27,513 bases of DNA from a virus, in IMG/VR virus record IMGVR_UViG_3300020000_000055, positions 1-27,513 of that record. One strand, given 5' to 3'. The translations under genes and the position numbers were made by a program. This document shows positions 4,026-24,681 of the stretch, in pieces (the stretch's first letter is position 1; each line of letters opens with the position of its first letter). Under the pieces are notes generated by a model. It ran no database searches, was not told the DNA's origin, and saw only the letters and a list, made by a program, of their open reading frames with translations.

Positions 4026-4997
4026 TTAATTAGGTTTAATATTTAAAAGTTCAAATAATTTCTTCTCTGAAGCTGCAACTTCTTCTACTGAAACTTTTCC
4101 ATCTAGAAGAGTTTTAGCCTCTATCTTTTCCTTACTTCCAGCAGGTAGTTCTGGGGTCTCAATTGATTTTGATTTATCAGCCTCTAATTTTTTTAGAGCT
4201 TCTGGAGAAAAGGATTTTCTTGTAAGTTCAACCATTTCAGTTTGGCTCATAATTTTTTTATCCTTTACACCTTTTACAACTGATTCAGGGTCAACATCCA
4301 CAAATGTCAGCCATGCACATACCCTATCATTTTCTTTAGCTTCTCCTTCTTTAAGAACTTGGGCATAAATTTCAGGGTGTTTTGTTTTTAATTCGTCTAA
4401 GGTCATAGTGATAGGTTTTGGTGTTATTGTTGGCGTTTGCTCTGCAGCAAGAGAATCCATTTTTTCGTAAAAGGATTCTAATTCTTTAGGATTTAAGGAA
4501 ATGATTGAATCAATAAGACCTACAGCTTTTGCTTGTTTTGCATCTAGCCATAAATCAATTCTTTTTTCAGCATCAAAAAGCTCATCAATAGTATAGCCTT
4601 TTAATTCTTTTAATTTATCATTATTAATCCTTGAATTTAATTTTTTTCTCATGTCGGCATTGATAGTAGCCAACAATTGTTTGTCTTCTTCTGATTCAAC
4701 AAACATGTCTCCCCTATGAATCATAAACTGGGTAACATCTAGTGCGGAAACTTTCCCGGGTGTAGCATACATAAGAAATGGAATACCCATCGATGCAACT
4801 AATCCTTCAGCCTTTATTGCAATTGAACCTTTATGTTCTTTCATTTTAGCAATCATACCCCAAGCAGCGAAAACACGACCTCCGCCGGTATTCATCCTGA
4901 TCGTTATATCTTCTGATTTATTTTCTTCCATTTTAGAAAGAAAACTTTCAGCGACAAAATCATAGATTCCTGAGTATATATAAAGTTCTTTTGCCAT
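4026..4997 (-). CDS. ClpP-like prohead protease with C-terminal scaffold domain
   Basis: A 323-aa protein whose first ~170 residues form a ClpP/S14-type serine protease: RMNTGGG at 34-40 (oxyanion glycine region), the nucleophile in LVASMG (Ser69), and MIHRG with His94 as general base; an Asp in the following helical region should complete the triad. Residues ~195-323 are helical, charged and repeat-like, as expected for an internal scaffold, and Met198 (ITMTLDELK) could be an internal start for a separate scaffold, as in lambda C/Nu3. It matures the prohead by cleaving scaffold. It sits upstream of decoration and capsid genes. The upstream divergent region (4998-5092) probably contains its promoter. 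Confidence 0.87.
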   Translation of the reverse strand: MAKELYIYSGIYDFVAESFLSKMEENKSEDITIRMNTGGGRVFAAWGMIAKMKEHKGSIAIKAEGLVASMGIPFLMYATPGKVSALDVTQFMIHRGDMFVESEEDKQLLATINADMRKKLNSRINNDKLKELKGYTIDELFDAEKRIDLWLDAKQAKAVGLIDSIISLNPKELESFYEKMDSLAAEQTPTITPKPITMTLDELKTKHPEIYAQVLKEGEAKENDRVCAWLTFVDVDPESVVKGVKDKKIMSQTEMVELTRKSFSPEALKKLEADKSKSIETPELPAGSKEKIEAKTLLDGKVSVEEVAASEKKLFELLNIKPN

Positions 4998-4999
4998 AA

Positions 5000-5016
5000 T
5001 ATTGAAGCAAATTTGT
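5000..5016 (-). promoter_or_regulatory. Promoter-like element shared with the sheath upstream region
   Basis: On the minus strand this reads ACAAATTTGCTTCAATA, two bases upstream of the protease ATG. An almost identical element (ACAAATTTGCTCAATA, one T fewer) lies at 19239-19254 upstream of the sheath gene. The CAAATTTG core differs by one base from the Bacteroidota -7 box TAnnTTTG. It could be a structural-gene promoter or an operator. No convincing -33 element was found. Confidence 0.4.
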
Positions 5017-5042
5017 TAATATATATTTCGTATAAAAAACAA

Positions 5043-5059
5043 TATGCATTTCATATGCA
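5043..5059 (-). promoter_or_regulatory. Candidate operator, copy 1 of a 17-bp shared motif
   Basis: The minus strand reads TGCATATGAAATGCATA. It consists of two ATGCAT palindromes whose centres are 11 bp apart, about one helical turn. The same 17 bases occur at 19283-19299. Here the motif lies 11 bp upstream of the TAAATTTG box of the plus-strand gene at 5093, so a bound protein would overlap the -33 position. Confidence 0.55.
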
Positions 5060-5070
5060 TAAAAAATTAT

Positions 5071-5078
5071 TAAATTTG
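5071..5078 (+). promoter_or_regulatory. Bacteroidota-type -7 promoter box for the tandem-RHH gene
   Basis: TAAATTTG matches TAnnTTTG exactly and lies 14 bases before the ATG at 5093. A -33 box is weak (TTTC at 5049-5052, spacing 18). The leader would be only a few bases long. Confidence 0.5.
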
Positions 5079-5092
5079 TTTAATCATTGGTT

Positions 5093-5449
5093 ATGACAAA
5101 ACAAAAATCTCAAAAAAGAAATAGGCCTTTAAGAATTGATAAAACACCCGATGTATTACTTACTCCATTGAATAATATTGCAGATAATATGGGGGTAACA
5201 ATGACAGATTTATTGAGGCCAGAAGTAAGAAATATTGTGGATAGTTATCCGGAATATTTAAAAAGAAAGCCATCACAAAAAAAATGTAAGCATTGTGCGA
5301 TATATGGAGTTCCTACAAAAGTTATTGATGAGCTTTTTAATATCGCGGATAACTTAGATATTTCTTATGCAGCTATATTAAAAATAGGATTTACTAAACT
5401 GGAACAAGGTTTTCCAGAAAAGATGAAAAAGCCTAAGCCTAAGTTTTAG
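5093..5449 (+). CDS. Tandem ribbon-helix-helix-like putative DNA-binding regulator
   Basis: A 118-aa protein if started at the ATG at 5093 (a TTG two codons upstream is also in frame). It contains two ungapped copies of one unit of about 40 residues: copy 1 about residues 18-57 (LNNIADNMGVTMTDLL ... YPE) and copy 2 about residues 75-114 (LFNIADNLDISYAAIL ... FPE). Each looks like strand-helix-helix with the shared NIADN turn, typical of ribbon-helix-helix DNA-binding folds, so one chain could act as a pseudodimer. A CKHC pair lies in the linker. It is antisense to the structural genes and inserted between portal and protease; its stop overlaps the portal stop by 11 bp. No terminator separates the convergent ends. 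Regulatory function is inference from fold-like pattern and the nearby motif. Confidence 0.65.
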   Translation: MTKQKSQKRNRPLRIDKTPDVLLTPLNNIADNMGVTMTDLLRPEVRNIVDSYPEYLKRKPSQKKCKHCAIYGVPTKVIDELFNIADNLDISYAAILKIGFTKLEQGFPEKMKKPKPKF

Positions 5450-7055
5450 GTGGAATTACTTTTTCAGGCTGTTGAACTATTTTAAGTTTTCTAGCTTGTT
5501 GCATTTCAAGAGCAAATTGTTCCATATTAGAATCAGAATCTCCATTAGCTAATTCCTCTGTCGCTTGTTCTATTGTTATTAATGGAATAGCTGCAGCACT
5601 TTCTCCTAATTTTCTTCTTATTGCTTCTACCTCTTTAACCGGGTCTATTTGTGGTACAGAAGGCCCAATAAAACGTGCATTGTGGTATGCACCTATAACC
5701 ATATCATTCTCCTTTGCTATAGCCTCTAAATAGCCAGGAGCTTGAATTTTATTTTTTAGAATTTCTATGTAAAGCCAAAAATTCCAAATTTCTTGGTAAA
5801 ATTGATCTGAAAAATATTTTCTTTTTACATCTAATGTATGGCCCCATTCCTTTATTGCTGCACGACTAGCAGAATAATTACTATTATACATTGCTTTTGC
5901 AACTTCGGGAGGAACTTCTACTGCAGAACAGAAAAAATTAAAATTAGTTTCAAAAAAATCTTTAAATGATAATTCATTTTTACTATCCAAAGAAGTCAAT
6001 TTGGAATCATTAGGCATATTAAAAGTAGTCTTATTGGTAGTAACTGCTATTTTATCGGCCAATTGAATACCATTTATATCAACCGGAACTTCTTTTTTAG
6101 CATCTGCATCATGAGCCTGGATAATTGCCTTGGTAACATTTCCAGTTCTAGGGTCTTCTCCAGTGGAATTAATACCATGCTCAATAGCATAAACTATCTT
6201 TTGTCTTTCTTCCGCACTTCCAACTGTTGCTTCTTTATATCGTTCTATTTTACTTAGAGATTCCAAAACCGTTGCCAATAAAGGAATACCTCTACAATTA
6301 TCTATTCTATGCTTTCTTCCATAAACTAAAAAAGCCATTTTTGCACCTGAGTTTTCTCCTCTTGCAGGAATTCTTTCATAAGACAGTGCAGAATTTCTTA
6401 CATAATAAGCAATATGTTCTCCTGTTTTGGAAAACTCTATTCCATGAAGAATTTTATTTCCGGTTAACGCCGCATCACCAAAAAAATTACTATTGCCAAG
6501 AGGTGAACAAACATTTGAACCGTCTATTAATTGTATCGATAAATTATTTTTATCATATCTCAGAATTACTAATAAATCTCCAGCAATCTCAGCATTTTTA
6601 TATGCAATATTTGCGATTTCACCCAACGTAGATTGTTTAGCATAATCACATTTTTTTGAATTACCATAAATTTTAAACCGTGCTTCTGAAACCCTATTAA
6701 AATCTTCTGAATTTAAAGTAATACCTTCTGATTTTAAAACCACTTTACTCGGTTCTGCTTGGACTTTTAATCCTGAACCGATAACCCAAGAAGTTAATTT
6801 TAATAATACTGTATTTGCTATATCACTTGTTAATACAGCTTCCCAGCTTCTAAGTCTTAAAGCTTCATAATTTAATAAATAATGTTTTAATGGCCCTATC
6901 TCTCCAAGATTCTTTTCTCCATCATATGAAATAGTAAAAAGGTGATTATGAAATCCACCCCTGATTTCTCCAGAATCCCAATCAGCATTAGGCTTTTTAG
7001 AAGAATCTACATTATTATTAGGCTTTTTAAGCCAATCTTTACCAAAAAATTTCAT
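5439..7055 (-). CDS. Portal protein (lambda gpB family)
   Basis: The 538-aa length nearly equals that of lambda gpB (533 aa). The lambda-family portal signature is visible: LRLRSWEAVLTSDIA near residues 86-100 followed by LTSWVIGSGLKVQ, then a central beta region (LIDGSNVCSPLGN), the GIPLLATVLESLSKIERYKEA helix segment, and a C-terminal part with PPEVAKAMYNSNYSASRAA. It forms the dodecameric portal ring at the capsid vertex through which DNA is packaged. The start directly abuts the stop of the gpW-like gene, matching lambda W-B order. The 3' end overlaps a convergent plus-strand gene by 11 bp. Confidence 0.92.
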   Translation of the reverse strand: MKFFGKDWLKKPNNNVDSSKKPNADWDSGEIRGGFHNHLFTISYDGEKNLGEIGPLKHYLLNYEALRLRSWEAVLTSDIANTVLLKLTSWVIGSGLKVQAEPSKVVLKSEGITLNSEDFNRVSEARFKIYGNSKKCDYAKQSTLGEIANIAYKNAEIAGDLLVILRYDKNNLSIQLIDGSNVCSPLGNSNFFGDAALTGNKILHGIEFSKTGEHIAYYVRNSALSYERIPARGENSGAKMAFLVYGRKHRIDNCRGIPLLATVLESLSKIERYKEATVGSAEERQKIVYAIEHGINSTGEDPRTGNVTKAIIQAHDADAKKEVPVDINGIQLADKIAVTTNKTTFNMPNDSKLTSLDSKNELSFKDFFETNFNFFCSAVEVPPEVAKAMYNSNYSASRAAIKEWGHTLDVKRKYFSDQFYQEIWNFWLYIEILKNKIQAPGYLEAIAKENDMVIGAYHNARFIGPSVPQIDPVKEVEAIRRKLGESAAAIPLITIEQATEELANGDSDSNMEQFALEMQQARKLKIVQQPEKVIPPKT

Positions 7056-7376: not shown

Positions 7377-7913
7377 TTAAATAGTTTTGATTTCATCTAT
7401 TTTAGAATCATCAATTGACGCAGAGCTAGGTGTTACCGGTATAATGCTTGGTACTGCTGTTGGTGGTGATGGGGAGCCTGTTCCAGCTGTTAGATGTGTA
7501 TGTGAATTAAAGGCACTTACTAAATCATTGTAATCTGATTTTAATTGATCGAAACCAGTTTTTAATTTATTAAATCTTACCATAAAATCAGTATCTCCAC
7601 CTACCTCCATTGTTCCGTCAGCTTTCAACCAAATAAAAGTAGAAATTGAACCATCAGATTTTTGAGAAAAGATTCTCTTTTCTCCAACAGCAGCCAATTT
7701 ATTTTCTATAAGATAACCAACAATTACTGTCTTACCTTTAACACCGGTTTCCATAAATAAGGCCCTGGTGCCAGCCGGAGGATTTGAATCATCTCCGAAA
7801 TTAGAATATTCTTTTGCCGTTTGGAAATCACTTTTACCTTTAACCAATACCTTTACAATCCTTCTTTTAAGGTTATCAAAATCAGTTGATATTATTTTTG
7901 ATATAAAGTTCAT
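7377..7913 (-). CDS. Baseplate puncturing spike (Mu gp45 / P2 gpV-like)
   Basis: A 178-aa protein with an OB-fold-like N-terminal region (GDDSNPPAGTRALFMETG, residues 40-57), a beta-strand repeat ending in LKADGTMEVGG (residues 96-106), and a helical linker leading to NSHTHLTAGTG. His138 and His140 form the HxH motif which in P2/Mu-type spikes binds an iron atom at the trimer apex. A Pro/Ser-rich C-terminus follows, an unusual extension of ~30 residues beyond the HxH site. It is the trimeric membrane-piercing spike under the tail tube. The start overlaps the hub stop as TAATG. Confidence 0.82.
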   Translation of the reverse strand: MNFISKIISTDFDNLKRRIVKVLVKGKSDFQTAKEYSNFGDDSNPPAGTRALFMETGVKGKTVIVGYLIENKLAAVGEKRIFSQKSDGSISTFIWLKADGTMEVGGDTDFMVRFNKLKTGFDQLKSDYNDLVSAFNSHTHLTAGTGSPSPPTAVPSIIPVTPSSASIDDSKIDEIKTI

Positions 7914-14774: not shown

Positions 14775-16609
14775 TAGTTAAATCCTACTGTTGATGTCAT
14801 TTTTATTTTCATTGGGCCTACACCTGGGTCTAATTCAGCTCTACCTGTACCATCATTAATATTCAAAGTCGCATTTTGCATTATTCTCTTTTCAAAAGTC
14901 TGAGTTAATGCTTCATTTTGTGCAGCTTTAGGATTAACCAATTCTTTCTTATTTAGAGGTTGGCCACTTTCATCTGTGGTTGTATTAGCGCCAATAGAAC
15001 TTCTAAATTGACCTATACTATTCGCTGCACTAGAAGCCCATTCAAAACCAGTGAATTTCGCAATCAGCTTAAATACCTGTTGCAATGGCATTAATATGGC
15101 ATCTACTATAGTAGCACCTATTTTAAGAATTCCACCTAAAATATCTCCGTTTTTAAATGCTGAGATAATAGCATCCCAATTTCTTCTAAAGGACTGAATC
15201 AAAGAAATTATTAACCCAAGAGGGCCAGAAAATAAAGCTACGGCTGCACCCCATTCATTCCACTTGTTTACAACAATAACAACTGCTGCAATTAATGCAA
15301 GAATTCCAATAATTATTAAGCCAATTGGATTGGCTGCCATTGCTGCATTCCAAAGCCATTGAGCTTTTGTAACAATACCAACAACAAATGAAACTCCAGA
15401 AATAGCAAATGCTAATGCACTTAATCCTGCTGTAACATATACTATAGTTTTTGCTAATGCCGGATTTTGTTTTGTCCAATTAATTATATTACTAACAACA
15501 GGAATGACTTTATCTAAAAATTCATTTACTATTGGTAATAAAACTGTGCCTAATTTAACCCCTAAATTTTGTGTTTGTGCTTTTAATTGTTTAAACCGCT
15601 CATTCATAGTAGCAGAATTTATAGCTGCTTGTTTCTGAGCTTCTGAAGTCCCTGTTACTTGTTCTGTAAACTTTTTAAATGTATCAACATTACTTAATAG
15701 GATTCTTCCTGCAGTAATATTTTGTAACCCAAAAATTTTAGTCACAAAAGCATCTCTTTGTTTTGCAGTTTTTAAATGCTCCATCTTTTGAGTTGCTTGT
15801 TCTAAAGCATCGTTTATTTTAAATTGACCACTCTTATAACCTAATCCGGCTTTTTGTAATCTTACGATACTTCCTCTTAATGCAGTTCCTGCATCCGCTC
15901 CCAATAATGAAAATTTAGCTAATGTTTGAATTAATCCTACTGATTGTTCTAAAGTAATATTGGATGACGCTGCAGTAGAACCAAAATTTACAAATGCTTC
16001 TGCTGTTTGAGCGATTGTAGCCGCACCTACACCTTGACCGGCTGCTAACACATTAATAGTCCTATTTGCCTCTAAAGCTCCTAATGAAAATTGATTCATT
16101 ATACCAACTAAACTTTCTGCAGAAGGCCCAAGCTCCATTCTTGAAGCTTTAGATAATGTTATTGCAGCATCCGAAACAGCACCAATTCCCTCAGCCGTTT
16201 CTGCAAAAGTCGCATTTAATCCAGCTATCTTTTCAAAAGAAGCAGCAACATCATTATAAGATCGTTTCTGAGAATCTCCAATTTCTTGTATTTTGTCATT
16301 GAATTTTGCAAAATCTTTATCTGATAAATCACTTACAATAGTACGAAATGAAGCTAATGAATCTTCAAATGTTTTTGCCTCGTTTACAGCAAGAATAAGA
16401 GGAGTGGCTAGTGCTGCACCAATAAGAAAACTCTTCTTTGCAATATCCATTGCAGCAGTACTAATTCCTCTTAATTTTCTTTCAAACCTAGCAACTTCAG
16501 CTTCTCCTTTTTTAGCAAACTTACTTACAGCATCTCCCATACCTTTTACAGGGCCAGTGAATTTATCAATGGCTGTAAATATTGAAGGTATTGTAAAAGT
16601 TGTAGGCAT
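14774..16609 (-). CDS. Tail tape measure protein (TP901-type)
   Basis: A 611-aa protein with the TP901 tape-measure core at residues ~80-260: FEDSLASFRTIVSDLS, SYNDVAASFEKIAGLNA, AQTAEAFVNFGSTAAS and GADAGTALRGSIVRLQKAG. Hydrophobic, probable membrane-active segments lie at about 387-413 and 427-447, followed by helical and Lys/Gln-rich sequence. Its length determines tail length; at ~1.5 angstrom per residue a tail of roughly 90 nm is expected (estimate, minus processed parts). The start overlaps the stop of the frameshifted chaperone extension as TAATG. Confidence 0.93.
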   Translation of the reverse strand: MPTTFTIPSIFTAIDKFTGPVKGMGDAVSKFAKKGEAEVARFERKLRGISTAAMDIAKKSFLIGAALATPLILAVNEAKTFEDSLASFRTIVSDLSDKDFAKFNDKIQEIGDSQKRSYNDVAASFEKIAGLNATFAETAEGIGAVSDAAITLSKASRMELGPSAESLVGIMNQFSLGALEANRTINVLAAGQGVGAATIAQTAEAFVNFGSTAASSNITLEQSVGLIQTLAKFSLLGADAGTALRGSIVRLQKAGLGYKSGQFKINDALEQATQKMEHLKTAKQRDAFVTKIFGLQNITAGRILLSNVDTFKKFTEQVTGTSEAQKQAAINSATMNERFKQLKAQTQNLGVKLGTVLLPIVNEFLDKVIPVVSNIINWTKQNPALAKTIVYVTAGLSALAFAISGVSFVVGIVTKAQWLWNAAMAANPIGLIIIGILALIAAVVIVVNKWNEWGAAVALFSGPLGLIISLIQSFRRNWDAIISAFKNGDILGGILKIGATIVDAILMPLQQVFKLIAKFTGFEWASSAANSIGQFRSSIGANTTTDESGQPLNKKELVNPKAAQNEALTQTFEKRIMQNATLNINDGTGRAELDPGVGPMKIKMTSTVGFN

Positions 16610-17695: not shown

Positions 17696-19222
17696 TTAAG
17701 CTACGTTAAGTGAACCAAAACTGAATCCTGCAGTTGCTTCTGTATCAGATATTATTACATATCCACTTCTTTTATAACGGAATTTAGTTTGAAATCTATT
17801 TGGATTAGTAGTACTAGTTGATACTTTAATAGAAGATTTCATGAAAGCGGCATCTGTAATAAGTCCTCTTTGCTCTAAATCATCCGCATATTTTCTTAAA
17901 ATTTGAACCCATTGTTTTGGTTTTATTGTTTTCGGAACTACCACTGCAGCATTATCAGCAACAATAGCATGGTCAACAACATTTATTTGCTCCAATAAAT
18001 AATATCCAAATTTAACATTGAAATCAATATCTAAATTTCTTACATAATTGAATTGTGCTGGGTTTTCTCCTACCGGATGGTAAGTTGTAACTATTTCCTG
18101 AATCACATATCTTTCTGCTCCCAAATCAACAGTAGAACAACCTTTTTTAACAAAAGAATCTCTATTGTTATAGTCAGCCATTGAACCAATGTTTTTATCG
18201 ATTGGTATAGGCATATCAGGATATGACATTCCGGAAACATCCAAATGCGGATTATCTTGTGCTTGTCTTCCTTTTAACAATGCTACGTTTGCAGCAGCTT
18301 CCATTGCTAAACCAGGTGAAAGAGGTGCAGGACAAATTGAAATTGTTACTTGTGAAGATCGGCTATCAGTTATTGTTGTTGGGTCATCTAAAACAGAGCC
18401 AGTTAACGCAACAAAAGGTTTCATGATAATGCCAGTATATCTTCCAGTTGGATTTTCTGGACTTGGAATCCCATTAAATGCTTCAAGAGCATCCATAATA
18501 GAAGTAACTGCACCATATGTATTAACAACAATTGTGTTCCATTCATTTGCAAATAATGCTAATGCTGCTGCAATACTTGGAGTTGCAGACCCAGACTGAA
18601 TAGAAGTAACTGTATAAGTAATTCCGGCTGCATTATTTCCAGTATCAATTGATACCGTTAATCCTTCAGCAGTTAATCCTTTCCATTTACTTTCAAGTCT
18701 TGCCTCATATCCAAAATAAGTTCCGATCATTGGACAACCAAGAACATTATTTACAGCATCTCTTATTTTTGCAGATATTTGAGATGTCGTATCTCCACTT
18801 ACAATATTAATATCATAATTAGAGCCATCAACATTTTTCCTTCCAGCAATCCTTAAAGTATGTGTAACATTAGCTGTTGCTGTTCCAACAGGAGTAACTT
18901 TTATTATTTTTGATACGGCACCTGCTGCTTGTGCTTGCGCGACTACAATTGTGGGGATTCCTCCAATACCGGCACCTGAATTAGGTCTTAAAATTCTCGT
19001 TGCAATATGGATTGGAGAGCCATATCCATAAAGATCGCCAGCTTGCTTTGCTGAAGTAATTTCTTTTGCCGATATGTCTAAACTACCCTGATTAGCAAAA
19101 TTAGCTTCTCCTAAAATTACTATTCTTTGAGGTAGATTCGGTGAAGTTTCGCTGAAATCTCCTGTCGATAAGAGATAACCAACTATTCTTGATATTCTTT
19201 CAGAGCCAACAGCATTAGACAT
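17696..19222 (-). CDS. Contractile tail sheath protein (Mu gpL-like)
   Basis: A 508-aa protein, the length of Mu gpL sheath. Family motifs are visible: near the N-terminus NLPQRIVILGEANFANQG (residues ~29-46), then a Gly-rich stretch with YGYGSPIHIATRIL, a variable central domain (around residues 100-260), and the conserved C-terminal half with RYVIQEIVTTYH, NLDIDFNVKFGYYLLEQ and RGLITDAAFMKSS. It wraps the tube and contracts at infection. It is the first gene of the leftward tail operon and its start lies 16 bp from the shared ACAAATTTGCTCAATA element. Confidence 0.92.
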   Translation of the reverse strand: MSNAVGSERISRIVGYLLSTGDFSETSPNLPQRIVILGEANFANQGSLDISAKEITSAKQAGDLYGYGSPIHIATRILRPNSGAGIGGIPTIVVAQAQAAGAVSKIIKVTPVGTATANVTHTLRIAGRKNVDGSNYDINIVSGDTTSQISAKIRDAVNNVLGCPMIGTYFGYEARLESKWKGLTAEGLTVSIDTGNNAAGITYTVTSIQSGSATPSIAAALALFANEWNTIVVNTYGAVTSIMDALEAFNGIPSPENPTGRYTGIIMKPFVALTGSVLDDPTTITDSRSSQVTISICPAPLSPGLAMEAAANVALLKGRQAQDNPHLDVSGMSYPDMPIPIDKNIGSMADYNNRDSFVKKGCSTVDLGAERYVIQEIVTTYHPVGENPAQFNYVRNLDIDFNVKFGYYLLEQINVVDHAIVADNAAVVVPKTIKPKQWVQILRKYADDLEQRGLITDAAFMKSSIKVSTSTTNPNRFQTKFRYKRSGYVIISDTEATAGFSFGSLNVA

Positions 19223-19238
19223 AGGAATAAATTTATTT

Positions 19239-19254
19239 TATTGAGCAAATTTGT
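19239..19254 (-). promoter_or_regulatory. Promoter-like element upstream of the tail operon
   Basis: The minus strand reads ACAAATTTGCTCAATA; a copy with one extra T is at 5000-5016 before the protease gene. Because terL transcription is stopped by the bidirectional terminator at 24644-24681 and the region between is transcribed the other way, the tail genes need a promoter here. The CAAATTTG core is one base off TAnnTTTG. Confidence 0.4.
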
Positions 19255-19282
19255 ATTATTAAAAATAAAAATTATAAATTTG
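19250..19282 (+). promoter_or_regulatory. Bacteroidota-type promoter of the glycosylation cassette
   Basis: TTTG at 19250-19253, a 21-bp gap, then TAAATTTG (exact TAnnTTTG) at 19275-19282. The ATG of the first cassette gene at 19288 is only 6 bp downstream, so the transcript would be leaderless or nearly so. The 19250-19253 box overlaps the palindrome CAAATTTG that also belongs to the opposite-strand element. Confidence 0.65.
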
Positions 19283-19299
19283 TGCATATGAAATGCATA
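19283..19299 (+). promoter_or_regulatory. Candidate operator, copy 2 of the 17-bp shared motif
   Basis: TGCATATGAAATGCATA, identical to the inverse of 5043-5059. It directly abuts the -7 box and covers the probable transcription start and the ATG at 19288. Part of it is therefore also coding sequence (codons 1-4 of the first glycosyltransferase), but the match is longer than coding constraint with the distant copy could explain. Confidence 0.55.
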
Positions 19300-20043
19300 A
19301 AAAATATTCGGGTCGGTATTATAATTCCAGATAGAAATGATCGACCAGAACTATTAAAAAATTGTTTGCGGATGCTTGAGGCGCAAACTTTACAACCCGA
19401 AATTATTGAGCTTATAAATTTCCATCCTAATTCTCATGAAAAAGATATTACATTAAGATACAGAACTGGATATGAAAAATTAAGGAATAAGGGGCTCGAT
19501 ATAATCGCATTTTGGGAAAATGATGATTATTATTCTAAAGACTACCTAGAAATAATGGTTAATAAATGGTTAGAAAAAGGACAACCTGATATGTTAGGAA
19601 CCGATTATACTATTTATTATCATTTAAGAAAAATAGCTTATTTTGTTTTCCATCATATTGATCGGTCAAGTGCATTAAGCACTTTAATAAAACCAGATTT
19701 GAAATTTCCTTGGTGTCAAGATACTGACCCATATACTGATATGTATTTATGGAGCCAATGTCACGAAATAAAAAACAAAGTTATATTTCATCCGGAAAAG
19801 CATATTACTATTGGAATAAAACATGGTGTTGGTCTACCTGGGGGAATTGGGCACACTGATGAATTACAAATTTTCATTAATCCAGATTTAAAAATTGATG
19901 AGAATGGAAATATTAGACAATATGGATTTTTAGAAGAGCATATGGATGAAGAAAGTTTTAATTTCTATAAAAATTATTTACCACCATTCACAAAACAAAC
20001 TTTAAAAATAATTAACGGTACTCCTATGATGGTACCAGAATGA
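19288..20043 (+). CDS. GT-A type glycosyltransferase-like protein (cassette gene 1)
   Basis: A 251-aa protein from the ATG at 19288 (a GTG at 19282 is in frame but overlaps the -7 box). N-terminus VGIIIPDRNDRPELLKNCLRML is the beta1-loop-helix opening of GT2-type nucleotide-sugar-binding folds; IIAFWENDDYYSKDYLE (DD at residues 79-80) corresponds to the DxD-type metal/nucleotide site. The C-terminal half is unlike common GT2 proteins and includes a GVGLPGGIGHTDE stretch. No membrane segments, so it acts in the cytoplasm. It is the first gene of the cassette and overlaps gene 2 by ATGA. The sugar and acceptor are unknown. Confidence 0.7.
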   Translation: MKCIKNIRVGIIIPDRNDRPELLKNCLRMLEAQTLQPEIIELINFHPNSHEKDITLRYRTGYEKLRNKGLDIIAFWENDDYYSKDYLEIMVNKWLEKGQPDMLGTDYTIYYHLRKIAYFVFHHIDRSSALSTLIKPDLKFPWCQDTDPYTDMYLWSQCHEIKNKVIFHPEKHITIGIKHGVGLPGGIGHTDELQIFINPDLKIDENGNIRQYGFLEEHMDEESFNFYKNYLPPFTKQTLKIINGTPMMVPE

Positions 20044-20855
20044 AAATAAATTATATTATGGAAAATGGCTACTATTGGATAAAAAACGGCCCAACATGGG
20101 ATATTGCTTACCATATTGGTGGAAAAAAATTCTTATTTCCTGGTCAAGGCAATTCACAAGAAGTACAAGAAGAACATATAATAAACCCTAAATTAATTCC
20201 ACCTATGAAAATAACATTAATTCACCCATCAAGAGGAAGAGCTTTAAAAGCTAAACAAACATTAGACTATTGGATGGAAAGAGCCAGTGGCAACAATGAA
20301 ATTGAACACATTCTTTCACTTGATAAAGATGATAATCAAGTAGAACAGTATATTATTCAATTCAATGGAAAATCAAAAATTTTTATTGAAGAAAATGATT
20401 CAGTAGTTATGGCGGCAAATAGAATTGCACTAGAAGCCACCGGTGATATTTTTCTTTATCTTTCAGATGATTTTAAATGCCCATTGAACTGGGATAAATT
20501 AATTATTAATAAAATCGGTCTTCGTGAAATATGTATGTTAAGAGTAAATGATAAACTCCAGCCAATGGATAATTGCGTACTAACAATTCCAATAATGACA
20601 AAGGGTCTTTATAATCTCCTGGGATATTTCTTCTATCCTGAATACAAAAGTATGTGGGTGGATTGTGATCTTTATTTTGTTACAAAACCTCATATGATCG
20701 AAGCCCCTGAATTAGAATTTAGACATGAACATCAAAAAGACGGTAATGATGAAACATATGAAAGAAGTAATCTAAATTGGAATCAAGGAGTTGATATTTT
20801 TAATAGGAGAAGTGCAGAATTTGGATGGGGAAGAGCTTTTAATCGGATTCCTTAA
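20040..20855 (+). CDS. Glycosyltransferase-like protein with an N-terminal YYW extension (cassette gene 2)
   Basis: A 271-aa protein. The GT domain begins at Met56 (MKITLIHPSRGRALKAKQTL), reached by an internal ATG at 20205, and includes NRIALEATGDIFLYLSDDF (SDD at residues 142-144), the usual DxD-like end of the first Rossmann half. The first ~50 residues are a separate small module, ENGYYWIKNGPTWDIAY then FLFPGQGN, resembling the short W-rich domains found next to other phage genes. ATGA coupling supports the long start. No membrane segment. Acceptor unknown; a GT2-like role is inferred. Confidence 0.68.
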   Translation: MKINYIMENGYYWIKNGPTWDIAYHIGGKKFLFPGQGNSQEVQEEHIINPKLIPPMKITLIHPSRGRALKAKQTLDYWMERASGNNEIEHILSLDKDDNQVEQYIIQFNGKSKIFIEENDSVVMAANRIALEATGDIFLYLSDDFKCPLNWDKLIINKIGLREICMLRVNDKLQPMDNCVLTIPIMTKGLYNLLGYFFYPEYKSMWVDCDLYFVTKPHMIEAPELEFRHEHQKDGNDETYERSNLNWNQGVDIFNRRSAEFGWGRAFNRIP

Positions 20856-20863
20856 TAAAAAAT

Positions 20864-21421
20864 ATGATAAAACTATCCATTTTAATCCCAACGTTAACTG
20901 AAAGAAGCAATTACTTAGATTCTATGCTTCGTAATTTGAATGCCCAAAGGACATTTGAAATAGAAATACTGGTTGATAAAAGAGCAAGAGAAATAACAAC
21001 CGGAGAAAAAAGGAATGATTTATTACAAAAATCTGCTGGAAAATATACTGTTTTTGTAGATGATGATGATGAAGTGCCTCCTTATTATATTCAAGAAATA
21101 TTGATAGCCATTGAGCAGGAACCAGATGTTATAACTTTTAATGGATTTATGACCACCGATTCTTTTAATAGGATTGATTGGGAAATAAGAGTAGGGCATC
21201 CATATCAAGCTGTTCAAAGAAATGGAAAAGAGTTTTATGTAAGATTCCCAAATCATCTTTCACCAATGAAAAGAGAGCATGCGATTAAAATCCCATTCCC
21301 ACATATAACATTAGGAGAAGACTATGCCTGGGCAAATAAATTAAATGATCTAGGATTATGGAAAAAAGAAGTTATCATAGATAAACACATGTATCATTAT
21401 AAATTTACAACACATAAATAA
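20864..21421 (+). CDS. GT2-family glycosyltransferase (cassette gene 3)
   Basis: The 185-aa protein has the clearest GT2 signature in the cassette: LSILIPTLTERSNYLDSML (residues 4-22), then GEKRNDLLQKSAGKYTVFVDD and DDDE (residues 66-70), that is the KRN...AxGxYxxFxDDDD pattern with the metal-binding DxD. A catalytic-base-like LGEDYAW (GED) occurs near residue 157, as in GT2 'ED' motifs. It is short for GT2 enzymes and lacks C-terminal membrane helices, consistent with a soluble enzyme. 8 bp separate it from gene 2. Confidence 0.85.
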   Translation: MIKLSILIPTLTERSNYLDSMLRNLNAQRTFEIEILVDKRAREITTGEKRNDLLQKSAGKYTVFVDDDDEVPPYYIQEILIAIEQEPDVITFNGFMTTDSFNRIDWEIRVGHPYQAVQRNGKEFYVRFPNHLSPMKREHAIKIPFPHITLGEDYAWANKLNDLGLWKKEVIIDKHMYHYKFTTHK

Positions 21422-21424
21422 ATT

Positions 21425-22057
21425 ATGTATAGTCAAAATGAAGAAGAACAATTTATACTTGAATTCTTTAGAAAAAGAATTCAAGGAACACTGATAGATA
21501 TAGGTGCAAATGATGGAAAAACATTTTCTAATTCACTTGCCCTAATTGAAAAAGGATGGAATGCTGTATTAGTGGAGCCTTCAAAATATGCATTTTCAAA
21601 AATAATGGAGCTCCATAAAGGCAGAAATGAAGAAGTAATAGCAGTCAATTGTGCTATAGCAATGGTAAATAGTAAAGTTATTTTGCATGAATCTGGCCCG
21701 CATTTAAAAGATAATTCTGATTTTGCTTTATTAAGCACTTTAAAACCTGAAGAAACAACAAGGTGGAAAAATGCTGGAGTTCCATTTACAGAAGAAGTAG
21801 TTGATGCAATAACTTTTAAAGAGTTAACTAAATTAACCGGTAAAAAGAAGTTTGATTTTATAACTATTGATTGTGAAGGATTAGACTATGAGGTATTGAG
21901 CCAAATAAATTTAGAAGATACTGAATTAATTTGCATAGAATTTAATTCTAGCCAGGAGAAGAAGGCGCAAATTTTAAATTACTGTGCTAGATTTGGAATG
22001 GGAAAAATTATTTATGAAAACGCTGAAAATTTATTAATATGCAAAGAAGAACAGTAG
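21425..22057 (+). CDS. FkbM-family SAM-dependent methyltransferase (cassette gene 4)
   Basis: The 210-aa protein shows the FkbM layout: TLIDIGANDGKTFSNSLAL (SAM-binding loop DIGANDG at residues 25-31), AVLVEPS (acidic Glu51 after beta2), VNCAI, and near residue 149 FDFITIDCEGLDYEVL, the DCEG motif of the family. FkbM enzymes O-methylate sugars and related hydroxyls. Within this cassette the likely substrate is a sugar added by the neighbouring glycosyltransferases (inference). The 3' end overlaps the next gene by 19 bp. Confidence 0.88.
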   Translation: MYSQNEEEQFILEFFRKRIQGTLIDIGANDGKTFSNSLALIEKGWNAVLVEPSKYAFSKIMELHKGRNEEVIAVNCAIAMVNSKVILHESGPHLKDNSDFALLSTLKPEETTRWKNAGVPFTEEVVDAITFKELTKLTGKKKFDFITIDCEGLDYEVLSQINLEDTELICIEFNSSQEKKAQILNYCARFGMGKIIYENAENLLICKEEQ

Positions 22058-22749
22058 TTAGTTTTGCAGATGGTGTAGGCCATTATGCAAAGGCATTGAT
22101 GAGACTTGAATTATCGTTAAAACAAGTGAATTTTGATGGTAATTTTAAAGGAATAAATGATTACGGACACATAAATTCACCTTTACATAAGAATGTACCA
22201 GATGCAGTTCCTTATGCATTCAAAGCTTTATCCATAAAAAAAGCCATTGAAGAAGGTGCAGAAATCTTACTTTGGTGTGATTCCGTTGTATATGCCACTA
22301 AGAATTTAACTCCAATTTTTAATCATATTGAAAAATATGGATATATTTTCTTTGATAATATTGGTTTTTCAATCGGTGATTATACTTCTGATGCGTGTTT
22401 AAGAAAATTTGGGATGAGTAGAGAAGAAGCATTTAATAGTAAAATGTTAATGGCATGTGTTATGGGATTCGATATACGTAATCCAAAAGCAAAAGAATTT
22501 TTAAATCAATATATTGCAGCCGCTTCTGATGGAATTTCTTATTTAGGTGATTGGACAAATGAAAATTGCCAAGTTTCTCAAGATATGAGGGTGAAAGGTC
22601 ATAGGCATGACCAATCTGTTGCAAGTATTTTAGTTAAACAAATGAATTTACAAATTACAAGAGCCCAGGAAACATTTTTTGCATACGCATCGCATAAAGG
22701 AATTTTGCCGATTGCCGATAGTGTTTCTTTGTGGTCAGAAGGAATCTAA
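22039..22749 (+). CDS. GT-A-like putative glycosyltransferase with HRHDQS motif (cassette gene 5)
   Basis: A 236-aa protein starting inside the 3' end of the methyltransferase gene. Residues 75-82 (EILLWCDS, Asp81) look like the DxD-containing strand end of a GT-A fold, and KGHRHDQSVASILV (residues 187-199) resembles the conserved HDQ segment near the end of several GT-A families in which the His/Asp/Gln contact the nucleotide-sugar. FFDNIGFSIGDYTSD may form the acceptor loop. I am unsure of the exact family. No signal or membrane segment. Its position in the cassette supports a sugar-transfer role. Confidence 0.58.
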   Translation: MQRRTVVSFADGVGHYAKALMRLELSLKQVNFDGNFKGINDYGHINSPLHKNVPDAVPYAFKALSIKKAIEEGAEILLWCDSVVYATKNLTPIFNHIEKYGYIFFDNIGFSIGDYTSDACLRKFGMSREEAFNSKMLMACVMGFDIRNPKAKEFLNQYIAAASDGISYLGDWTNENCQVSQDMRVKGHRHDQSVASILVKQMNLQITRAQETFFAYASHKGILPIADSVSLWSEGI

Positions 22750-22768
22750 TAACATAAAAATATAAAAA

Positions 22769-23425
22769 ATGGGAGTTACAGCATTTGACATTGAGCTTTT
22801 AGAAAAAGCAATTTCATTTAGTAAAAATATTGAATCAGTTTGTGAATTAGGTTCTCAAAATTTATACATATCTAATGAAGAAAAACCTCCATTTGCTAGT
22901 ATATGGTATGAAAAAAAGAACATAAGGTATGCTTGCATAGATTTAGCTGGAGATAATAATTCAATAAGACTTGATTTAGCAAATCCAATAGAAGTAGAAA
23001 GGCAATTTGATTTAGTAACTGATTTTGGAACTTCGGAACATGTAGTTCAAATGGAAGGATTTGAATCAATATCATTTCATGAGGGCCATATAAATTCAAT
23101 ATACCCAAAGGGTAATATAAAAAGTATTGAAGAAGGTTATTATAACTGTTGGAAAAACAAACATAACCTTTTAAATATTGGTGGTTTAATGATAAATGTA
23201 AATCCAAAAACTGGCCATTGGCCAGGGCATGGTTATACATATTTAACGGATGATTTTTATTTGGGATTATGTAAAATTGCTGGGTATCAAATACAAGAAG
23301 TGGGGCAAAATTGTGCAATGGGAAATTGTGAAACCGGTATTAATATTTACAGTATTTTGAAAAAGACAAGCGAACTTTTTCCATCATTTGAAGAATTTAA
23401 AAAATTACCATTATTTAGAATATGA
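22769..23425 (+). CDS. Class I SAM methyltransferase-like protein (cassette gene 6)
   Basis: A 218-aa protein with a degenerate Rossmann methyltransferase pattern: VCELGSQN (residues 24-31) instead of a standard DxGxGxG, then RYACIDLAGDNNSIRLDLANP (beta2 acidic end and motif II; IDL at 57-59 and DL at 69-70), FDLVTDFGTSEHV (residues 80-92, post-motif strand) and later GLMINVNPKTGHWPGHGY as the beta5/beta6 region. It probably methylates a sugar or small acceptor. 20 bp separate it from gene 5 and it overlaps gene 7 by 4 bp (ATGA). Confidence 0.68.
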   Translation: MGVTAFDIELLEKAISFSKNIESVCELGSQNLYISNEEKPPFASIWYEKKNIRYACIDLAGDNNSIRLDLANPIEVERQFDLVTDFGTSEHVVQMEGFESISFHEGHINSIYPKGNIKSIEEGYYNCWKNKHNLLNIGGLMINVNPKTGHWPGHGYTYLTDDFYLGLCKIAGYQIQEVGQNCAMGNCETGINIYSILKKTSELFPSFEEFKKLPLFRI

Positions 23426-24228
23426 AATTAGCAGCTATTTATAATGTATGGGATGGAGATGAACTATTACCATACTCAATTGCAAGCATATTAGAATATG
23501 TTGATGTTATAATTATTATTTGGCAAGAACATTCTAATTATGGAGAATATTATTATCCTGAAGTTGGTCAATCTAATCTAAATTTTGATGCTTTCCATAG
23601 AAAAATTGCAGGAATAGCCAAAAAAGAAAAACCTGTCCAATTAATCACATCAGTTAAATATATTTATCAAGAATATAAGCCAGTTTCAAATAGTGGCGCA
23701 TCAAATGAAACAAGCAAAAGAAATATTGGTCTAGATATAGCTAAAGAAGAAGAATGTACCCATTTTCTTTTTATGGATTGCGATGAATCATATCAGGATT
23801 TCGGTAAAGCAAAAAAAGAATTTATTGATTCTGATGCAGATGGTTCAGTTTGTGAACTTTTCACGTATTGGGTGAACCCAACATACCAATTGGAGCCAAA
23901 AGAGGACTATTTTGTGCCATTTATTCATAAATTAAGGAAGAATACCTTAGCCGGTATGCAAGAATATCCTTGGTGGTGCGACCCTACAAGGAGAGTAAAT
24001 GAACAAAATGTAGTAAAAATCGCTTCTTGTATGCATCATTTTAGCTATGTTAGAAATGATATTGAGCGTAAATTAAGGAATTCTAGTGCAAAAATTAATA
24101 TAGAAAAATCTACTTATCTTGAAGATTACAAAGATTTAAAGAGAACTTTGGCTCCATCAGGTCATTATATTCCTTGTATGAAAAGAAATATTAAAATTGT
24201 TGATAACATTTTTAATATTTATATATAA
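23422..24228 (+). CDS. GT2-like glycosyltransferase (cassette gene 7)
   Basis: A 268-aa protein with LAAIYNVWDGDELLPYSIASIL at the N-terminus, of the kind seen in GT2-like enzymes with a 'DxxLPY' acceptor helix, and THFLFMDCDESY with a DxD motif at residues 119-121. EGxH-like catalytic elements are not clear; the C-terminal part has WWCDPTRRVNEQ and CMHHFSYVRNDIERKL. The last residues YI precede a gap without a terminator before the exported-protein gene. No transmembrane segments. Function inferred from fold pattern and cassette context. Confidence 0.7.
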   Translation: MKLAAIYNVWDGDELLPYSIASILEYVDVIIIIWQEHSNYGEYYYPEVGQSNLNFDAFHRKIAGIAKKEKPVQLITSVKYIYQEYKPVSNSGASNETSKRNIGLDIAKEEECTHFLFMDCDESYQDFGKAKKEFIDSDADGSVCELFTYWVNPTYQLEPKEDYFVPFIHKLRKNTLAGMQEYPWWCDPTRRVNEQNVVKIASCMHHFSYVRNDIERKLRNSSAKINIEKSTYLEDYKDLKRTLAPSGHYIPCMKRNIKIVDNIFNIYI

Positions 24229-24283: not shown

Positions 24284-24622
24284 ATGCGAAAATTTCTAAT
24301 TTGCTTTATGATACCGTGTTGTACGTTTTCAACTGCCAGTTTCGCTTCTGACAGGGCACCAACTAAAAAAGCTGAATATGGTTATTCAATAACTATAATT
24401 GAAAATCAAAATCAGGAAATTCCTGAAATTCAAAACAACTTGTATTGCTTGAATGAATATATTGAGTGGCGGGAAAGTGAAAACTTATCTACTATAAAAA
24501 TAAATAAAATTCATTTTCAATTACATACAAGTAAAAATTTGCAAAAAGTCTCACATGAAAAAAAATTGATAAGAGCGACAATTAGGTATCTACCGTATTG
24601 CTCTAATCATAGTTTAAATTAA
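24284..24622 (+). CDS. Small secreted protein (moron-like), unknown function
   Basis: A 112-aa protein with an N-terminal signal peptide: MRKFLICFMIPCCTF then a small-residue end TASFA, so cleavage near residue 22-24 is likely. The mature part (~88 aa) is polar with two further Cys residues (LYCLNEY and YLPYCSN), compatible with a disulfide in the periplasm or outside. It is the only exported protein in the window, follows the glycosylation cassette by 55 bp and ends just before the bidirectional terminator. A TATATTTA sequence at 24247-24254 is a weak -7-like box, so it may be separately transcribed. No known family recognised. Confidence 0.55.
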   Translation: MRKFLICFMIPCCTFSTASFASDRAPTKKAEYGYSITIIENQNQEIPEIQNNLYCLNEYIEWRESENLSTIKINKIHFQLHTSKNLQKVSHEKKLIRATIRYLPYCSNHSLN

Positions 24623-24643: not shown

Positions 24644-24681
24644 AAAAAATCCGATGTGAGATTACTTACATCGGATTTTTT
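24644..24681. terminator. Bidirectional rho-independent terminator
   Basis: Left arm AAAAAATCCGATGTGAG (24644-24660), loop ATTA, right arm CTTACATCGGATTTTTT (24665-24681). The core 12 bp pair with one G-T wobble, and an A-run on one side and a T-run on the other give each strand a terminator. It separates the plus-strand cassette from the minus-strand terL, whose stop TAA begins at 24683. Confidence 0.9.

Follow-up and report, generated by a model that had tools for sequence, protein, structure and literature searches.

Arc and Mnt of Salmonella phage P22 are small ribbon-helix-helix (RHH) proteins whose ribbon binds paired half-sites one helical turn apart, and they govern a single intergenic region in the immunity region of P22. 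Each chain of AvtR, from an Acidianus filamentous virus, contains two RHH units. Ogr/Delta, Mu C and lambda Q are phage activators of late genes. No earlier description of RHH late regulators of Bacteroidota phages was found in the open-access literature. Here we describe a 17-bp motif in a viral contig which, judging from sequence comparison, would be the site of the phage's own RHH protein, activating the structural operons and repressing the RHH gene itself; we regard this model as a whole as reasonably probable. In dozens of related Bacteroidota phages, a site at a fixed distance from the promoter most likely helps to switch on the virus-building genes.

The stretch of DNA analysed (the window) comprises 27,513 bases and is the whole contig of the record. 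The 17-mer TGCATATGAAATGCATA was found twice in it, as an earlier note had claimed, at 19283-19299 on the plus strand and in inverse orientation at 5043-5059, and a scan of the window gave no third exact copy. The count against shuffled sequence that the note had proposed, run at up to 3 mismatches, gave 3 matches versus 0.48 expected, and 2 of 100 shuffles reached 3; the sole extra match, at 5045-5061, is the other register of the palindrome at the first site. The note also held the match to be unlikely by chance. This stood for the two intergenic stretches, for which 5 of 5000 dinucleotide shuffles gave a common 17-base word; genome-wide, the pair is the top dispersed repeat by a narrow margin (score 18 versus several of 17). 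Therefore, the window taken alone is suggestive rather than firm; comparative evidence turns the pair into a firm observation.

Each of the two sites is a 17-bp near-palindrome made up of two 6-bp half-sites with centres 11 bp apart, which bears out the paired half-sites proposed in the note and makes the 17-mer the core of a putative RHH operator (Table 1). In operator 1 the palindrome has perfect 7-bp arms, a point that the note had missed. Operator 2 is the same palindrome with a single arm-base change, and overlaps the start codon of the glycosylation cassette.

Table 1. Operators, promoter elements and genes at the two sites in the window
Feature	Position	Strand	Description
Operator 1	5043-5061		19-bp palindrome TATGCAT-TTCAT-ATGCATA with 17-bp core 5044-5060; flanked by the RHH and ClpP-like protease genes
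Operator 2	19282-19299		17-bp core 19282-19298 (GTGCATATGAAATGCAT); includes the 17-mer 19283-19299; between the sheath gene and the glycosylation cassette
Predicted -7 box CAAATTTG, protease/capsid operon	5008-5015	-	Exactly 28 bp from core
T-tract (-33 region), protease promoter	5034-5039	-	Between core and -7 box
-7 box TAAATTTG, RHH gene	5071-5078	+	Core at about -39 to -23 (predicted occlusion)
Predicted -7 box CAAATTTG, sheath/tail operon	19246-19253	-	Exactly 28 bp from core
-7 box TAAATTTG, glycosylation cassette	19275-19282	+	Core at about -5 to +12 (predicted occlusion)
ClpP-like head maturation protease	4026-4997	-	Opens the protease/capsid operon; PHROG head maturation protease, E 8e-19
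Regulator gene	5093-5449	+	118-aa protein, two predicted RHH units (residues about 13-58 and 68-110)
Portal	5439-7055	-	PHROG portal, E 3e-54; overlaps the end of the antisense RHH gene
Tail sheath	17696-19222	-	Opens the sheath-to-portal operon; PHROG tail sheath, E 7e-76
Glycosylation cassette	19288-24228	+	GT2-like glycosyltransferases and FkbM-type methyltransferase; divergent from sheath

The plus-strand promoters had been described correctly in the note, with a -7 type box, TAAATTTG, ahead of both the RHH gene and the cassette. On this strand, the core lies 10 bp ahead of the -7 box of the RHH gene, but directly past that of the cassette. On the minus strand, the note had missed the 8-mer CAAATTTG, which occurs at just two places in the whole window, both at the same distance from a core. 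These two boxes deviate from the consensus by one base, and match the -7 peak seen at this offset in the relatives. The Bacteroidota -7 element has T at -12 and G at -5 (PMC6847099), and in the protease and sheath promoters alike this geometry puts the core at about -57 to -41. The first gene of the cassette is apparently leaderless, with a predicted start site at 19287 and the ATG at 19288; in several relatives, too, the ATG of the RHH gene is no more than about 10 bases from the -7 box.

Judged by its alignment and structural model, the product of the regulator gene is a tandem RHH protein. Both halves match the single-domain RHH protein of a related contig, and the alignment of 38 homologues has the RHH pattern of a ribbon strand followed by two helices (EIRIxGV...L.NIA.N.G...S.LLKP.LR.I). 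Folded without an alignment, the protein gave a poor model (pLDDT 47); with the 38 homologues, the pLDDT was 87 and two helix-helix units were seen, with the ribbon strands unassigned in this single-chain model (pTM 0.43). Pfam RHH_5 matched 5 of 28 members with a best E of 6e-4, member 1 being below the curated cut-off, and the profile matches in the PDB were weak (ORF56, E 0.0012; VapB12, E 0.0013). The top Foldseek matches were mostly RHH proteins (VapB12, CopG, ORF56 and Arc), again weak, with E above 0.2 and a probability of 0.80 at most, and the 'Arc-like repressor' models of PHROG matched some relatives weakly. No toxin gene adjoins the RHH gene in the window or in the relatives, its neighbours being the portal and head protease genes, which argues against a type II antitoxin.

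A search of viral contigs with the 118-aa protein or the portal of the window gave no matches, and relatives were gathered via the sheath protein (38 contigs). One of them (G002, contig L011) has a 69-aa RHH gene in antisense orientation, flanked by portal and protease; the same two palindromes precede this gene and the sheath gene. RHH homologues were found antisense at this place in six of the sheath relatives, G002 included, and in most of 80 portal relatives, which were those compared of 231 matched; the order of portal and antisense RHH gene is kept. Genome-derived relatives with the RHH gene are mostly labelled Bacteroidota. One contig (L231) is binned as Phycisphaerales, yet has a Bacteroidota-type phage block, and its label is probably a binning error. 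The RHH protein of G002 had no match among 50,697 phage records, and no isolated phage carrying the RHH-operator system was found.

For the first seven phages, every self score between the two upstream regions (18-68) was above all cross-phage scores (maximum 13). Twenty-five contigs had both ends, and in 19 of them the best match of the RHH upstream region, taken outside its own neighbourhood, lay within about 115 bp upstream of sheath; these matches scored 18-90 and the best elsewhere 12-21, save for one contig with 11-bp iterons. The element was also shared upstream of sheath in four of four further genome-derived cases outside the discovery set. It was not shared in six of the 25 contigs, of which two (G058 and G065) are near-duplicates of each other. 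The element is phage-specific and usually palindromic, its letters varying by phage, with TTCC-N9-GGAA as the commonest theme. As a control, six of seven relatives lacking the RHH gene shared nothing between the two regions. In the exception (G035; L222/L223), sheath and protease have an element in common (oriented positions 16099 and 29043), spaced from the promoter as in the other phages, and no RHH gene is detectable on the contig; the regulator of this phage is therefore located elsewhere or of another kind, and the element can outlive the neighbouring RHH gene.

Two further arrangements were noted among the relatives. G053 (L206/L207) has 11-bp direct repeats, ACGAGTACCTA, arrayed at the regulator, sheath and portal promoters (oriented positions 7390-7479, 19665-19709 and 22106 onward), an iteron-like form of operator. 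Each of the two promoters of G002 has a second palindrome, TTGTCTA...TAGACAA, in the stretch separating the RHH core from the -7 box (L046 2965-3003 and L011 9251-9292); it may be the site of another regulator.

The similarity of the two regions could be due to chance, or to an intergenic stretch of no regulatory significance that was recently duplicated or copied by gene conversion; taken by itself, the window has a 17-mer barely above its other repeats, and some relatives have 70-90 bp common to both regions. This is very improbable in view of the self versus cross control (7 of 7), the validation cases (4 of 4) and the covariation given below. Moreover, in G000 and G033 the sites at the two places have opposite orientations, and in G058 half-sites alone are common to both places, with the 28-bp spacing kept; simple duplication is therefore no explanation.

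When 30 sites of 15 phages were anchored on the core, the score for TAnnTTTG peaked at offset 28 on the structural side, at 4.43 of 6 versus 2.64 +/- 0.14 for the rotated null (0 of 5000), and the flank opposite the structural genes showed no comparable peak and no fixed spacing in the same sites. The distance from core to structural -7 box is fixed to about 1 bp; the intervening letters are unrelated and the distance to the start codon varies widely. At 52 RHH/protease junctions, analysed without use of the sheath regions, palindromicity was centred 37 bp upstream of the -7 box (0 of 2000 rotations), which is the same geometry as the 28-bp core spacing. The site stands at a fixed distance of 28 bp upstream of the -7 boxes of the protease and sheath promoters, as would that of a phage late-gene activator.

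A T-tract at offsets 2-8, the -33 region, is common to the relatives. In G004, G010, G029 and G031, a T-run comes after the palindrome in the structural sense, as would be expected if the palindromes were intrinsic terminators that are alike by coincidence. This reading, to which we give hardly any credence, was rejected on two grounds: the hairpins at the two sites of the window are weak (-3.6 to -6.6 kcal/mol, versus -21 for a hairpin at 24644-24681), and the T-run keeps to one place, the -33 region of the promoter. Terminators, moreover, require neither identical letters at two loci nor covariation with the ribbon. The hairpin at 24644-24681 is itself terminator-like, with 14-bp arms and T- and A-runs on both sides, and separates terL from the convergent gene 24284-24622; the product of the latter has 112 aa and a signal-peptide-like start, and belongs to no family in Pfam or PHROGs.

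In the note, the sites belong to gene starts lying antisense to the structural genes, and would form an operator pair that co-regulates the small regulator gene and the glycosylation cassette, both on the plus strand. Such a layout is true of the window and of roughly 12 of the 19 element-bearing contigs, and in G002 and G009 the similarity spans the -7 boxes of both divergent genes. As a general rule, however, it is not supported. Among the 19 sheath sites where the element is shared, 7 lack a divergent gene upstream, and in two of these seven the sheath gene follows immediately on the end of terL; the element thus does not need a glycosylation cassette on the divergent flank, and the cassette as the only target was rejected on these seven sites. 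In addition, two phages have third sites upstream of a small gene preceding portal, and no fixed spacing was seen on the divergent flank. Co-regulation of the two plus-strand genes as the purpose of the pair is thus improbable. With fixed spacing on the structural side alone, the third sites at portal and the non-divergent sheath sites, the structural operons are very probably the conserved target of the sites. The RHH gene and the cassette would be co-regulated from the other flank, the cassette being a passenger of the divergent flank.

Between terL and sheath, the cassette varies among the relatives: it is absent (as in G010), of other composition, or on the opposite strand, as in G024 and G007, where it lies on the sheath strand. 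The gene order of the window, terL - (cassette) - sheath/tail - portal - protease - capsid, places the tail genes between terminase and portal. Portal and capsid precede tail in the Flavobacterium columnare phage FCV-1, the one cultured relative examined, which has a contiguous structural block with no RHH gene.

The 5093-5449 protein, for which the note had proposed binding assays on both sites, is the likely ligand: it is predicted to be a tandem RHH protein, it has homologues at the same place, and in these the ribbon residues covary with operator bases. Covariation was analysed in 22 non-redundant single-domain cases, a small set uncorrected for relatedness, the window protein being tandem; the aligned proteins mostly have less than 50% identity to the first row of their own alignment. 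In this set, the first exposed ribbon residue (b1) covaried with core position 4 and, less strongly, with position 3; at position 4, Arg occurred with C in 16 of 16 cases and non-Arg in 1 of 6 (Fisher p 2.3e-4). The second exposed residue (b3) covaried with position 5 alone, as T with A, R or K with C, and Y with G (0 of 2000 permutations). In RHH proteins, alternate ribbon residues recognise DNA, and the covariation of the single-domain relatives suggests the same here. Covariation of b1 and b3 with operator bases is the trace expected of such recognition and is strong evidence for binding; the RHH protein very probably binds the sites.

We propose that the 17-bp motif would be bound by the RHH protein of the phage itself, with two RHH units lying next to each other on the same helix face, a placement that the 11-bp spacing of the half-sites would suit. 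Bound at -57 to -41, the protein would contact the host RNA polymerase and activate the late promoters of the protease/capsid operon and of the operon from sheath and tail to portal. In this position it would also lie over the -33 region of the RHH promoter and, in the phage of the window, over the start of the cassette promoter, so that both would be repressed. Activation with self-repression is proposed because the site is beyond -40 and keeps its spacing across unrelated letters and variable start-codon distances. An activator touching the polymerase would fit this geometry better than a roadblock; fixed spacing is in itself also compatible with a repressor blocking polymerase entry. That RHH proteins are able to activate is known from AmrZ, which is both activator and repressor (PMC3325190). 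Activation of the structural operons is probable on the present sequence comparisons; late timing and repression of the cassette are likewise proposed.

Alternatively, the RHH protein might repress all promoters at both sites, the structural ones included, as a timing brake or in prophage silencing. Most characterised RHH regulators (Arc, CopG and the antitoxins) are repressors, the core overlaps the promoters of the RHH gene and the cassette, and a tyrosine recombinase was found in 5 of 15 longer contigs. At the structural promoters, however, the core is upstream of -40 and so outside the usual polymerase footprint, and the spacing is kept to about 1 bp across unrelated promoter letters. No integrase of the tested families was found in several contigs with the RHH gene, including two with terminal direct repeats (G052 and G060), which speaks against a role restricted to lysogeny, and the long contigs had no transposition-type integrase (PF00665). 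Repression throughout is accordingly the less favoured reading, and we consider it unlikely.

A large undescribed clade of Bacteroidota phages would control its head and tail operons by a small antisense-encoded RHH activator whose specificity diverges phage by phage, which we think rather likely. Little is known of how Bacteroidota phages time their structural genes, as their hosts use an unusual sigma factor and no isolated carrier phage has been found; the present comparison supplies a specific candidate regulator with its sites, together with a fixed geometry of the promoters and a predicted code of recognition. If the model is true, each phage owns a private late-gene key, and, the DNA specificity of the RHH protein having diverged phage by phage, natural variation would spell out a readable code of two residues and two bases.

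Like Arc and Mnt, the window protein is a small RHH protein encoded by a phage, and Arc is among its nearest folds. Unlike them, it has sites that keep a fixed spacing from the promoters of two or three structural operons far apart; the sequence diverges strongly among phages, and in the window the protein is tandem. The same fold is indicated by weak profile and fold matches to CopG and ORF56 of plasmids and to antitoxins of the VapB/RelB type, with which it would also share autoregulation via an operator overlapping its own promoter; unlike these, it has no toxin or replication partner and is encoded antisense inside a structural block. AvtR (PDB 4hv0) is likewise a viral RHH regulator and gave a weak profile match (E 0.34), but comes from an archaeal virus with other promoters and another gene setting. 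AmrZ of Pseudomonas aeruginosa is an RHH protein that both activates and represses (PMC3325190), as proposed here, but is a cellular virulence regulator not concerned with phage late control, and no close sequence similarity was found. In their role, Ogr/Delta, Mu C and lambda Q come near to what is proposed, each being a phage protein that switches on head and tail operons by way of sites close to the promoters, but they are of other folds and mechanisms and none is an RHH protein. The diverging operator specificity resembles the private regulatory keys of phages, and would offer a natural series for the study of RHH-DNA recognition.
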